The notes under the pieces: model-generated
What the model saw: the letters and a program-made list of their open reading frames with translations, nothing else
Database searches by the model: none
Told to the model about the DNA's origin: nothing
Shown: one piece after another, positions 4,802 to 25,465 of the stretch
Position numbering within the stretch: the first letter of the stretch is position 1
How the letters are laid out: each line of letters opens with the position of its first letter
IMG/VR virus record: IMGVR_UViG_3300036985_003224
Location: 1-27,790 of that record
Reading direction: 5' to 3' (one strand)
DNA length: 27,790 nucleotides
Source of the DNA: a virus
Program-made: the position numbers and the translations under genes

Positions 4802-5094
4802 GCGCCACTCGATTTGATGGTTCAGATTATATTCATGAGCGCGATTGCGCTCGACTCTCCGATCAGTTATCTAGGGTCTACGATTGCATCCGATCTGGGG
4901 CATGGATGACTCTTGAAGAAATTGCTACTGCGTCGGAGGCTCCTGCACCAAGTGTTTCGGCACAACTGCGACATTTACGAAAGAAGCGATTCGGTGAGCA
5001 TATCATAGAAAAGCGTTATGAGGGAGACGGTCTTTATCGTTACAAATACGGTGGAATGGTAACACGAACAGAGAAACAACTTAGTTTAATTTAA
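4798..5094 (+). CDS. Winged-helix DNA-binding phage protein
   Basis: 98 residues. Residues about 37-62 (MTLEEIATASEAPAPSVSAQ then LRHLRKKRFG) form a helix-turn-helix, followed by a wing of EKRYEGDGLYRYKY. This arrangement, opening with a TRFDGSDY...RD segment, is a recurring small winged-helix protein in phage early regions, likely a transcription or replication regulator. It has a good Shine-Dalgarno AAGGAG (4788-4793) four bases before ATG and overlaps the upstream gene by ATGA. Confidence 0.8.
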   Translation: MSATRFDGSDYIHERDCARLSDQLSRVYDCIRSGAWMTLEEIATASEAPAPSVSAQLRHLRKKRFGEHIIEKRYEGDGLYRYKYGGMVTRTEKQLSLI

Positions 5095-7264: not shown

Positions 7265-7481
7265 TCCTAAAAAGATAGTGGCTGACGCCATAGCTGCCGG
7301 GCTGATTCAGTATGGAGATCCAGCGCCTAAGCACAAACGCATCCCTAAGCCGGTTGTGTTTGCTAAGCCTAAGTTTTATATCCCACCCATAAAGCATCAG
7401 TACATTCACCCAGTCGAAGTGCCACCGCTTGAAATTGTAAAAGGTCGGCGTCGGCTGTTTACTACGGCACCAATTTACTAA
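7254..7481 (+). CDS. Hypothetical basic, proline-rich protein
   Basis: 75 residues, rich in Lys and Pro with a repetitive middle (KHKRIPKPVVFAKPKFYIPP) and a basic tail (KGRRRLF). The N-terminal PKKIVADAIAAGLIQYGDPA could be a short helix-turn unit. No family recognised. It is coupled to the nuclease gene by a TAATG overlap, so the two are probably made together. Confidence 0.65.
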   Translation: MRLDPKKIVADAIAAGLIQYGDPAPKHKRIPKPVVFAKPKFYIPPIKHQYIHPVEVPPLEIVKGRRRLFTTAPIY

Positions 7482-18982: not shown

Positions 18983-19864
18983 TTATGGCGTCTTGGCAAC
19001 TGGCTCAAAAGCTTCTGGTGGCCCTACTTTAACTACAAGTGACTTTGGCTTTTCTGCTGCTTGCTGGCGTTTAAGGATCTCGGCCGTCTCAAGAATGTCC
19101 TTGGCATTGCCAGGGTAAACAAAATTGCCGATGTGACCGCATTGCGTTTTGACGTTCATCCAGATCTTGCCGCCCATCTCGCGCCAGCGTTGGCAAAAAT
19201 ACCAGTCCTCTGACAAGAATCGTTTATAGCCAAGCGTGGGATCGGCGCGCACGCCCACCGTAAAGAAGTCGTACTTGATAGTACGTGGCAATTGCGTGTC
19301 ACCTTGATCAGTCTCAAACCTCATCTCATCGCTAAAGCGTTCAATCATCTTGGTGTAAACGTCACGATGGATCAGCATAAAACCGGTGCCGGCTTCGCGC
19401 ACTTCAACTTCACCATTAGCATCAGGCACGCAGCCTGGCATTGGATTAAACACGATCTTAGGCTTTAGCTGCTTAATCGGGTACGTGCCAGCGTATATGC
19501 CTGGGCCGCGCCTTAAAGCCATCTCGTACACGGTTGTAATGCCGTCTGGCTGAAAGATCAAATCAGTATCAATAAAAAGCATCCAGTCGTACTGGCGCTT
19601 AACCGGCTTGCCATCGATCACATCAGGATAACCTTGAATGAAATTGTAAGCCAGATTGTTCCGCGCTCGATTTACCAGGCTGTCACCTGGCATGAAGTCG
19701 ATAAAAGGTACTATGTTAATTGTGCCAAGAGCATGCAGCACGCATTGCATAAATGGCTGGTCGATCTTGCCGCCAAAGCAAGGCAGACACATTACGATGC
19801 GGGGATCTTTAACAATGGCCGTATTATCAGCCGTAGTAACGCTAGCGGTATTAGTTGTATCCAT
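18983..19864 (-). CDS. GT-A-like glycosyltransferase within the head module
   Basis: 293 residues from ATG 19864 (MDTTNTASV...), chosen over an ATG seven codons upstream that lies in the terminator. The Rossmann-like GT-A core is visible: PRIVMCLPCFGGKI, then DSLVNRARNNLAYNF, then the DxD metal/nucleotide-sugar motif in WMLFIDTDLIF (D99-T-D101), AGTYPIKQLKPKI, and a late SEDWYFCQRWREMGGKIWMN acceptor-side segment ending in H. Such enzymes move a sugar from a nucleotide donor to an acceptor. It is embedded between the major capsid and connector genes and would be made late, suggesting a virion or cell-surface acceptor; the acceptor is not shown. Confidence 0.82.
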   Translation of the reverse strand: MDTTNTASVTTADNTAIVKDPRIVMCLPCFGGKIDQPFMQCVLHALGTINIVPFIDFMPGDSLVNRARNNLAYNFIQGYPDVIDGKPVKRQYDWMLFIDTDLIFQPDGITTVYEMALRRGPGIYAGTYPIKQLKPKIVFNPMPGCVPDANGEVEVREAGTGFMLIHRDVYTKMIERFSDEMRFETDQGDTQLPRTIKYDFFTVGVRADPTLGYKRFLSEDWYFCQRWREMGGKIWMNVKTQCGHIGNFVYPGNAKDILETAEILKRQQAAEKPKSLVVKVGPPEAFEPVAKTP

Positions 19865-19883: not shown

Positions 19884-19913
19884 AAAAGAAAACCACCGAG
19901 GCAATTCGGTGGT
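19884..19913 (-). terminator. Intrinsic terminator after the major capsid gene
   Basis: On the minus strand, ACCACCGA and TCGGTGGT form a perfect 8-bp stem (19892-19899 / 19906-19913) with loop ATTGCC, followed by TTTCTTTT. It lies about 35 bases after the capsid stop and before the next gene, so it would partly end transcription and give a higher level of capsid message. The base of the stem overlaps a GTCTTAAGAC palindrome (19912-19921). The loop is complementary to that of the neighbouring hairpin. Confidence 0.8.
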
Positions 19914-19926
19914 CTTAAGACTGTCT

Positions 19927-19942
19927 AGCCTATTGCCAGGCT
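19927..19942 (-). other. Hairpin complementary to terminator loop (kissing-loop candidate)
   Basis: On the minus strand, AGCCT-GGCAAT-AGGCT forms a 5-bp stem with a 6-base loop, five bases after the capsid stop. Its loop GGCAAU is the exact reverse complement of the terminator loop AUUGCC, so the two adjacent hairpins could kiss through six pairs. The complementarity covers exactly the loops and no more. Confidence 0.6.
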
Positions 19943-19947
19943 TCTGA

Positions 19948-20832
19948 TTATTCAGCGACGTTCGTGATGCGGGTAAGGTTGCCGGAGTTACCAACAGCCG
20001 CGCCGTAGATAAAGCACCACTCGGTGACTTGCGATACGCCATTATAATAATCGCGGATCTGAACCGTCAAGCCGGTATCAGGATCGGTGACGTTAGAAAC
20101 TTCACCGTACCAGTTACGTGGCAGCGCAGGAGGACGAGCAGCGACGAGCAGCGCTTGAGGAGCAAACGCATAGGCCGCGAGGTTATTCGTGGTTGGGATC
20201 GTGCCATTCCACTCTTGGATCTGGTAACCATAGACATCAGGGAGACGGCCGGTTTGGATCGCTTGAGCAGAGCCGTAAGCATAAGCAGCTTGCACGGCGC
20301 TGTCTTTCTTAAGCGTAAGCGCATAAGTAGGAGGAGCAACAATCGTACGACGCCCCTGGGGAACCTTCAAGCCGTTCTGCGTGGAGCAGATACCAGCGAC
20401 GTTTGCAGCGCTAAAGTTAGCGGCCGCAAGGACGGTGTTGCTGGAATAGTTGGCAGGAGTAATCAGCGCTTGGCTGGTCGCCATTACGTTTTCAAACAAC
20501 GCAACGAGAGCAGGCTGCACAAACATCTCGGAAAGCTTAACGTCAGAGAAGGAAACCTCAGTGTCGGTAAAGCTGATCGGAATGCCGATATATTTATCAA
20601 GCGTAATGGTGCGAGCAACGGTGTTAGCCGAGATCAGCGTTTTAGTGCTGGAGAAATCGACGGCCGAGACTGCGTTAGGATAGCGCGTGGTTACGGCATT
20701 GCCGTAGGGAACTACTTCAGCGCTGAAATCAGTCCACATGGACATGAGGGGAAGCTTAGAAGTAAGGAGAGCGTCCAGGGTAAGCTGGGCGATACGTGTC
20801 ATAAAGACACCATTTAACGAATTAGTAGCCAT
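19948..20832 (-). CDS. Major capsid protein (P22-coat-like)
   Basis: 294 residues. The N-terminal ~35 residues are helical, followed by VVPYGNAVTTRYPNAVSAVD and TITLDKYIGIPISFTDTEVS with LSEMFVQPALVAL, the layout of P22-coat-type HK97-fold capsid proteins (axial strand, then FTDxE). Later segments include RRTIVAPPTYALTL, PDVYGYQIQEWNGT, YAFAPQALLVAARPP and TGLTVQIRDYYNGV. Position after protease/scaffold and before connectors fits. The leader is A/C-rich without Shine-Dalgarno (taactcactactATG). A terminator right behind it supports high expression. Confidence 0.85.
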   Translation of the reverse strand: MATNSLNGVFMTRIAQLTLDALLTSKLPLMSMWTDFSAEVVPYGNAVTTRYPNAVSAVDFSSTKTLISANTVARTITLDKYIGIPISFTDTEVSFSDVKLSEMFVQPALVALFENVMATSQALITPANYSSNTVLAAANFSAANVAGICSTQNGLKVPQGRRTIVAPPTYALTLKKDSAVQAAYAYGSAQAIQTGRLPDVYGYQIQEWNGTIPTTNNLAAYAFAPQALLVAARPPALPRNWYGEVSNVTDPDTGLTVQIRDYYNGVSQVTEWCFIYGAAVGNSGNLTRITNVAE

Positions 20833-24062: not shown

Positions 24063-24788
24063 TCAACTTCTCAAATGATGATGCCGATCAATGGCCGTTA
24101 TTTCTGGCATCCTCATCTCTCCGTTTTTACGTAACGTACTAAACTCAGCCAACAAATCAGCGCTGACGTAATTGCCGCCGGCTTCAAGTGAAGCCTTAAC
24201 CAAAGACTCTGGATGAAGTGGGCATCCATACTCGATTAAGTAAGGCAATTTTGTATAGGTGTTAAAGTAACTGCTAGCTGCGTATTTACCCATAATGGCG
24301 AACCTATCATTTATGCCGCCAAAGCGTCCCCACCAAGGTGTATATGCTACGAGCGCCGTGCCTTCTGTATAAAGCCCACCAGGCATTACAAAATTATGAA
24401 ACCAGAGATCTGGCCGGCAGCGTATGATTACATCAGCGGGATCATTAGCTGACTCGTATAAATGCCAGCCTTCACGCAATGACCAGAGCTGACCAATCAC
24501 CGCAGTTGGTGGCACTGAGATATGATACGGCTCATGCATGTAGAATTGCCCTGGCGTCCATGTAGTTGGACAGCCTGGGGGCATGACCATCTCAGGCTGA
24601 GTGACCGGCTTGATGATTACATGCTCATGCTTTTCGCGTAGTAGCTCCGCTTTGCTGGCATCCTCATCATCAGCCGGCGCCACGTAAAACTTAGCGTCTG
24701 GAAAATGTCGAAAAACTTGCCACTCCAGATTCTTGATGCAGCGCTCAAAACTGCGCATTTCCCCAGTTATAATTATGGCTGTACTCAT
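24063..24788 (-). CDS. Glycosyltransferase-like protein
   Basis: 241 residues. The N-terminus MSTAIIITGEMRSFERCIKN and KFYVAPADDEDASKAELL look like the nucleotide-binding half of a GT-A-like fold; VIIRCRPDLWFHN (about 121-133) and INDRFAIMGKYAASSYFNTY (around 158-177), then PLHPESLVKASL, match viral and bacterial glycosyltransferase-like proteins that use an RxRxDL...NDxF pattern. A clear DxD is not visible, so activity is inferred. Overlaps the methyltransferase gene by ATGA, so the pair is translated together, between terL and portal. Confidence 0.65.
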   Translation of the reverse strand: MSTAIIITGEMRSFERCIKNLEWQVFRHFPDAKFYVAPADDEDASKAELLREKHEHVIIKPVTQPEMVMPPGCPTTWTPGQFYMHEPYHISVPPTAVIGQLWSLREGWHLYESANDPADVIIRCRPDLWFHNFVMPGGLYTEGTALVAYTPWWGRFGGINDRFAIMGKYAASSYFNTYTKLPYLIEYGCPLHPESLVKASLEAGGNYVSADLLAEFSTLRKNGEMRMPEITAIDRHHHLRS

Positions 24789-25465
24789 TTGAGATCAGCA
24801 GCAGCACCGTACCAGATCATCTGGCCAAGCACGCTTGCGGTTTGAGGTTTGAAGCTGTCAGCAACTGCACGATCAACGCCCCACCATTCTTTGCCATCGT
24901 TGATAAAATCATCACCAGCTATCAGCGTACCCGGATGACATAGTTTGCGCACCGCCTCAATCTCGCGTTTCACCGTGTCGTAATCGTGGCTGGTATCGAT
25001 ATAGATAAAATCAAATTGCCCAGTCACGTTGGCCAAAAAGACTGCGCTGTCAGATTGTATTAATTTAACTTTATGTGGTTCCTGCGGGTTAATGTTATCA
25101 AGCGCTTTCTTAATATCTGGTGCATCACCAAAACCAGACTCAGCCCAAGTCTGACCTTTCTTTTCTGGCGCCCAATCGTCGCATGGCTGATCAGCGAAAC
25201 GATCAACGCCCACTACTTGCAACGCTCGGCCGGCGCAGACATCGAGCATAATAGTAATGTCACGCCCCATATATACGCCAAGTATCAAGACTGTCTTGAT
25301 CTCTGGCATAGCCTGAAAGACTGATTTAAAAAAGAGGTAGTGTATAACTCGCGACCAGCCTGGTACACGGCTAGCGATAGCGCCCCAGGGCGCAGCCATA
25401 AGTTGTAGTTTATCCTCTGACGAATTGGCATCAAGTGCCTGCGTTATTTTGTCGGTAATGTTCAT
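24785..25465 (-). CDS. Class I SAM-dependent methyltransferase
   Basis: 226 residues. SAM-binding motif I is VLILGVYMGRDITIM (about 59-73); the acidic end of strand 2 is VVGVDRF (84-90); motifs IV-V are FDFIYIDTSHDYDTVKREIE (151-170) followed by HPGTLIAGDDF (177-187), the pattern of the Methyltransf_24 family. Members methylate small molecules and sugars; the substrate here is unknown. Coupled by ATGA to the glycosyltransferase-like gene, which argues for a shared glycan substrate. No DNA-methylase motif such as DPPY or NPPY is seen. Confidence 0.82.
   Translation of the reverse strand: MNITDKITQALDANSSEDKLQLMAAPWGAIASRVPGWSRVIHYLFFKSVFQAMPEIKTVLILGVYMGRDITIMLDVCAGRALQVVGVDRFADQPCDDWAPEKKGQTWAESGFGDAPDIKKALDNINPQEPHKVKLIQSDSAVFLANVTGQFDFIYIDTSHDYDTVKREIEAVRKLCHPGTLIAGDDFINDGKEWWGVDRAVADSFKPQTASVLGQMIWYGAAADLK

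Follow-up and report, generated by a model that had tools for sequence, protein, structure and literature searches.

A putative kissing two-hairpin RNA element at the 3' end of a phage capsid message

In the virus record analysed here (the window, 27,790 bases in all), the gap between the capsid gene and the downstream glycosyltransferase gene would encode a cis-acting two-hairpin RNA. Since the two loops change in matched pairs in relatives, a cis kissing-loop element is well supported, and we consider it highly probable that an RNA kissing structure forms in cis between the two hairpins. The best explanation overall, to which we assign a probability of about 0.6, is a kissing two-hairpin element at the 3' end of the capsid mRNA that combines a leaky terminator with protection of the message.

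The capsid-side genes of the window run leftward on the minus strand, in the order small and large terminase, portal, a 339-aa protein, capsid, a glycosyltransferase-like gene and more genes. The major capsid protein (MCP) gene (294 aa; 19948..20832, minus strand) matched PHROG 283, major head protein (E 3e-20). The glycosyltransferase-like gene (18983..19864, minus strand) matched PHROG 1574 (E 1e-24) and the phage glycosyltransferase family PHROG 34859 (E 2e-9), in agreement with a preliminary description that named a glycosyltransferase downstream of the capsid gene. No family match was obtained for the 339-aa protein before the capsid or for the tested genes beyond the glycosyltransferase. 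The gene between terminase and portal (24785-25465, minus strand) matched the phage DNA methyltransferase family PHROG 2675. Inspection by eye of the 24 nt before each minus-strand gene start of the window showed no recognisable Shine-Dalgarno motif in most cases. Among sequenced phages, Verrucomicrobia phage P8625 comes closest, with 32% identity in the capsid and 31.5% in the portal.

The 3' end of the capsid mRNA carries the element. On the minus strand, the capsid stop codon TAA (19950-19948) is followed after 5 nt (5-7 nt across the clade) by hairpin 1, AGCCU-GGCAAU-AGGCU (19927..19942; arms 19942-19938 and 19931-19927), which exposes loop 1, GGCAAU (GGCAAT in DNA; 19932..19937). A 13-nt linker (AGACAGUCUUAAG; 19914..19926) leads to hairpin 2, the terminator ACCACCGA-AUUGCC-UCGGUGGU (19892..19913; arms 19913-19906 and 19899-19892), whose loop 2, AUUGCC (ATTGCC in DNA; 19900..19905), is the proposed kissing partner of loop 1. 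The stem of hairpin 2 has 8 bp, or 11 with an A-U extension, and is followed by the interrupted U-tract UUUCUUUU (19884..19891); interrupted U-tracts are found in relatives too. A GC-rich hairpin directly before a U-rich tract, as expected of an intrinsic terminator, is thus present in the window as well as in relatives G001-G005, and in the window it is the strongest terminator-like minus-strand site within 15-27.8 kb. Both hairpins were predicted by RNAfold, and the 66-nt stretch had a z of -3.4. The program puts an extra G-U pair into loop 1 (G[GCAA]U), so that this loop may have 6 nt or be a GNRA tetraloop, and the latter could compete with the kiss. One RNA therefore holds two tandem hairpins with mutually complementary loops. 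The preliminary description had reported a post-capsid hairpin and a terminator with exactly reverse-complementary six-base loops, and complementarity that stops at the loop edges; both points were verified in the minus-strand sequence, the bases that flank the loops being U/U and A/A.

Six IMG/VR relatives were used. Capsid identity to the window is 98% for G001, 66-70% for G002, G003, G004 and G005, and 53% for the more distant G006; in all six, a relative of this glycosyltransferase comes next after the capsid gene. The gap in G001-G005 contains two hairpins, a linker of 12-14 nt and a U-tract, the linker sequence being conserved only with the closest relative. The loops are GGCAAU/AUUGCC in the window and G001, GGCAGU/ACUGCC in G005, and GGCUAGU/AUUAGCC in G003/G004, where both loops have gained one base, the added bases pair and another pair is G-U. 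The stems also differ among relatives with compensation: stem 1 is shifted in some rows of the alignment, yet 6 of the 15 consensus pairs are doubly changed. G002 keeps only four contiguous loop pairs (GGCG/CGCC) within an 11-nt, incompletely complementary loop 1; as it retains GGC...GCC and one G-C pair and has lost the rest, it is weakly supportive only. Loop complementarity is thus kept fully in G003/G004 and G005, and over four pairs in G002. When loops were re-paired across lineages of the clade, the top score was reached by the observed pairing alone (1/24); the clade comprises only four distinct sequences, so that the covariation rests on few independent changes. The proposal that the loops kiss between adjacent hairpins is upheld because both stems covary, as do the loops with each other: independent variation of loops on retained stems, the outcome that was to speak against it, was looked for in relatives, and the loops had changed together instead.

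Outside this set, the P8625 capsid is the only relative among sequenced phages, and it comes with a single terminator. No capsid relative was detected in prophage or host genomes by two motif scans of 84,980 species genomes. A pattern search with the terminator alone matched clade members and unrelated sites.

From the stop codon to the terminator stem, a stretch of 62 nt, the window and G001 are 100% identical; identity falls to 64% in the 33 nt that follow and is 80-86% at third codon positions in the genes on either side. At the third-position rate, 62 identical bases would occur with a probability between about 1e-6 and 1e-4. As some coding stretches of like length are also identical, this conservation is a support and no proof. 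Geometry was estimated with a rough model that assumes stacking as in known kissing complexes and is not a structure prediction. In the stacked-helix model the linker must bridge a rod of 17-20 bp, about 48-55 Angstrom (ideal A-form estimate); linkers of 12-14 nt reach 78-90 Angstrom, enough for the modelled rod, and the linkers of G006 and of the phage L076 are longer.

The G006 gap (L006) was initially taken as a counter-example, since no kiss joins its hairpins 1 and 2; once shorter stems were allowed, hairpins 2 and 3 were found to pair through six Watson-Crick bases (CGUGCA/UGCACG), without a canonical terminator tail. There (L006 about 4925-4992; G006 7414-7481), a very stable hairpin 2 with an 11-bp stem kisses a weak hairpin 3, for which, just before the glycosyltransferase start codon, a translational role is possible. 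L076 has a capsid of another family (PHROG 212), a head protease, and behind the capsid gene a 137-aa protein annotated without function. Between this protein and a member of the same glycosyltransferase family as in the window, two 12-bp hairpins (L076 2899-2982) have loops that share seven Watson-Crick pairs (UGACUGG/CCAGUCA). The linker of L076 holds a small third hairpin. With G006 and L076 added to the re-pairing analysis, the observed pairing was again alone on top (1/720), a figure that is optimistic because both were found by scanning; for the same reason they carry less weight than the covariation in the clade.

Other gaps were scanned likewise. No kissing pair was present in the other capsid-to-glycosyltransferase gaps scanned (L080, L082, L084), nor in the post-capsid gaps of most MCP relatives that have no adjacent glycosyltransferase; the element is therefore not general. 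Loop matches in L018, L047 and L026 were left aside, being on the strand that does not carry the capsid gene, and those in L083 and L078 appear to fall inside coding sequence. Before the glycosyltransferase of L084 (about 2800-2860), GGGGG/CCCCC and CCCCC/GGGGG hairpins share one arm, and look mutually exclusive, attenuator-like.

We propose the following working for the element in the window. Locked together by the 6-7 bp loop-loop helix, the two hairpins would stack coaxially into a rod of about 19 bp with which the capsid message ends. Hairpin 2 would be a leaky intrinsic terminator: a large part of the late transcripts would stop there, behind the capsid gene, and those that read through would supply the downstream genes. 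The kiss would stabilise the released 3' end against 3'-5' exonucleases, shift terminator efficiency, or both. The glycosyltransferase ATG, at 19864, lies 27 nt past the terminator stem, and the distance from hairpin 2 to the next ORF is 18-39 nt in the clade. With the terminator so near the next start codon there is no room for a promoter, and the downstream genes most likely need read-through. Judged from position, a terminator or 3'-end role is somewhat favoured as the main job of the element, and either stabilisation of the capsid message or an excess of capsid over downstream products through tuned termination is plausible. We tentatively suggest a class of phage 3'-end elements, of multiple origins, in which, between the capsid and glycosyltransferase genes, the terminator or last hairpin before the next gene is kiss-locked to an upstream hairpin and sets the ratio of capsid to downstream mRNA; the separate origins proposed are the clade of the window, the G006 arrangement and the unrelated L076 phage.

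A possible, if doubtful, alternative is that the kiss has its main effect while the RNA is being transcribed: loop 1 would capture the terminator loop as it emerges from RNA polymerase, speed or hinder its closure, and thereby tune termination efficiency. The U-tail of hairpin 2 and the likely need for read-through agree with this, as does the start of hairpin 1 at 5-7 nt past the stop codon throughout the clade. At this distance hairpin 1 is within the footprint of the terminating ribosome, which would cover it, so that a coupling to translation is possible and translation may contribute to the tuning. The G006 kissing pair, which has no canonical terminator tail, argues against tuning as the main function.

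It appears rather unlikely that the structure instead serves the downstream gene, by shielding the glycosyltransferase start from ribosomes that leave the capsid gene or by gating initiation without a Shine-Dalgarno sequence. None was seen in the sequence upstream of the glycosyltransferase start in the window, and the second kissing hairpin ends near the ATG (18-39 nt in the clade; as read from the sequence, G006 has about 15 nt here and L076 has 7 nt). Moreover, among the gaps tested, strong intergenic kisses precede this glycosyltransferase family. A role of this kind leaves the U-tracts unexplained, and the kiss is absent in other phages of the same gene order.

It is very improbable that the loops are DNA half-sites, GGCAAT ... 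ATTGCC, for a dimeric DNA-binding protein. By reasoning, symmetric covariation would also be expected of an inverted repeat to which a dimer binds, and the re-pairing scores taken alone are compatible with it; nevertheless the repeats coincide exactly with the loops of two hairpins with covarying stems, and the distance between the repeats varies by 1-2 bp within the clade and reaches about 38-45 bp in G006 and L076.

The contribution of chance was estimated with scans. The first scan called for stems of at least 5 bp, full-loop complementarity and adjacent hairpins, on both strands; in the window it returned the pair described here as the sole one on the transcribed strand, with its mirror image on the opposite strand. 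Of 60 dinucleotide-shuffled versions of the window, 2 contained such a pair, a rate that alone would make for modest evidence. In shuffled post-capsid gaps, at least 6 Watson-Crick loop pairs were obtained in 0.33%, and the background was one pair with at least 6 Watson-Crick bases per 665 kb of other phage DNA. When the window and its relatives were scanned whole, loop pairs with six Watson-Crick bases occurred solely in the capsid-glycosyltransferase gap; the G003/G004 pair, which contains a G-U, came from the first (full-loop) scan and lies in that gap. The chance of 1 in 4096 given previously for two random 6-base loops understates the freedom of the search, and the relatives make the case independently of it. 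A common terminator preceded by a common hairpin, their loops complementary by coincidence, would agree with a single 6-nt match of the kind that shuffling can yield, but it is hardly credible in view of the matched loop changes in two other lineages and the kissing pairs that two other phages have in the equivalent gap.

Other candidates were rejected. A GNRA tetraloop as the reason for GGCAAU does not hold, as G[GCAA]U occurs only in the window and G001, the corresponding bases being GCAG in G005 and GCUAG in G003/G004. An antiterminator switch, with the loops pairing in place of the hairpins, does not hold either: the two hairpins dominate folding, and in the lineages that were checked complementarity does not extend past the loops. 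An inverted duplication of one hairpin is contradicted by the unrelated stems. Finally, a sigma-70-like match lies within the capsid gene (TTGACG-18-TATAAT, 20070-20041, minus strand; 11 of 12 bases), and a promoter there could have yielded a short RNA that ends at the element; promoter bases are changed in G001, G003 and G005, and the match is therefore probably a codon coincidence.

If the proposed function is correct, a tertiary contact between a terminator and its neighbouring hairpin would be a means for a phage to set gene dosage within one late operon or, alternatively, to protect its most needed message. Terminator predictors that consider single hairpins would overlook such elements. 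Being about 60 nt long, the element could yield a tunable terminator part.

The preliminary description knew of no phage element of this form, and none was found in the open-access literature on kissing loops, terminators and phages: a phage terminator locked to an upstream hairpin is without a described example there, and tandem kissing hairpins are known elsewhere. No Rfam family was matched at gathering score, sub-threshold matches being weak and to other families. The intrinsic terminator Tphi of T7, between gene 10 and the next gene, is likewise placed directly behind the major capsid gene and a short way ahead of the next late gene, and is also a U-tailed GC-rich hairpin; it differs in that a loop scan around Tphi found no kissing partner. 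In the TAR-TAR* and ColE1 RNAI-RNAII kissing complexes, all bases of 6- or 7-nt loops are paired. Those complexes form between two RNAs, whereas the hairpins described here belong to one RNA and are 12-14 nt apart in the clade. Kissing hairpins are also predicted in picornavirus 3'-UTRs, for example that of Senecavirus A (PMC9189406); they resemble the present case in that the kissing loops belong to a short 3' untranslated region of a virus, and differ in being unrelated, in the context of an RNA-virus genome and without a terminator. The guanidine-II (mini-ykkC) riboswitch consists of two adjacent hairpins with a flexible linker of 7-40 nt and a proposed intra-strand kissing interaction (PMC7544219), and the element described here likewise has two neighbouring hairpins, a flexible linker and a proposed intra-strand kiss. 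The curated Rfam covariance model of guanidine-II was not matched at gathering score, and membership was rejected. In guanidine-II, ligand-bound tetraloops promote translation of the controlled gene, whereas the element at the end of the capsid message follows its gene and has loops of 6-7 nt.
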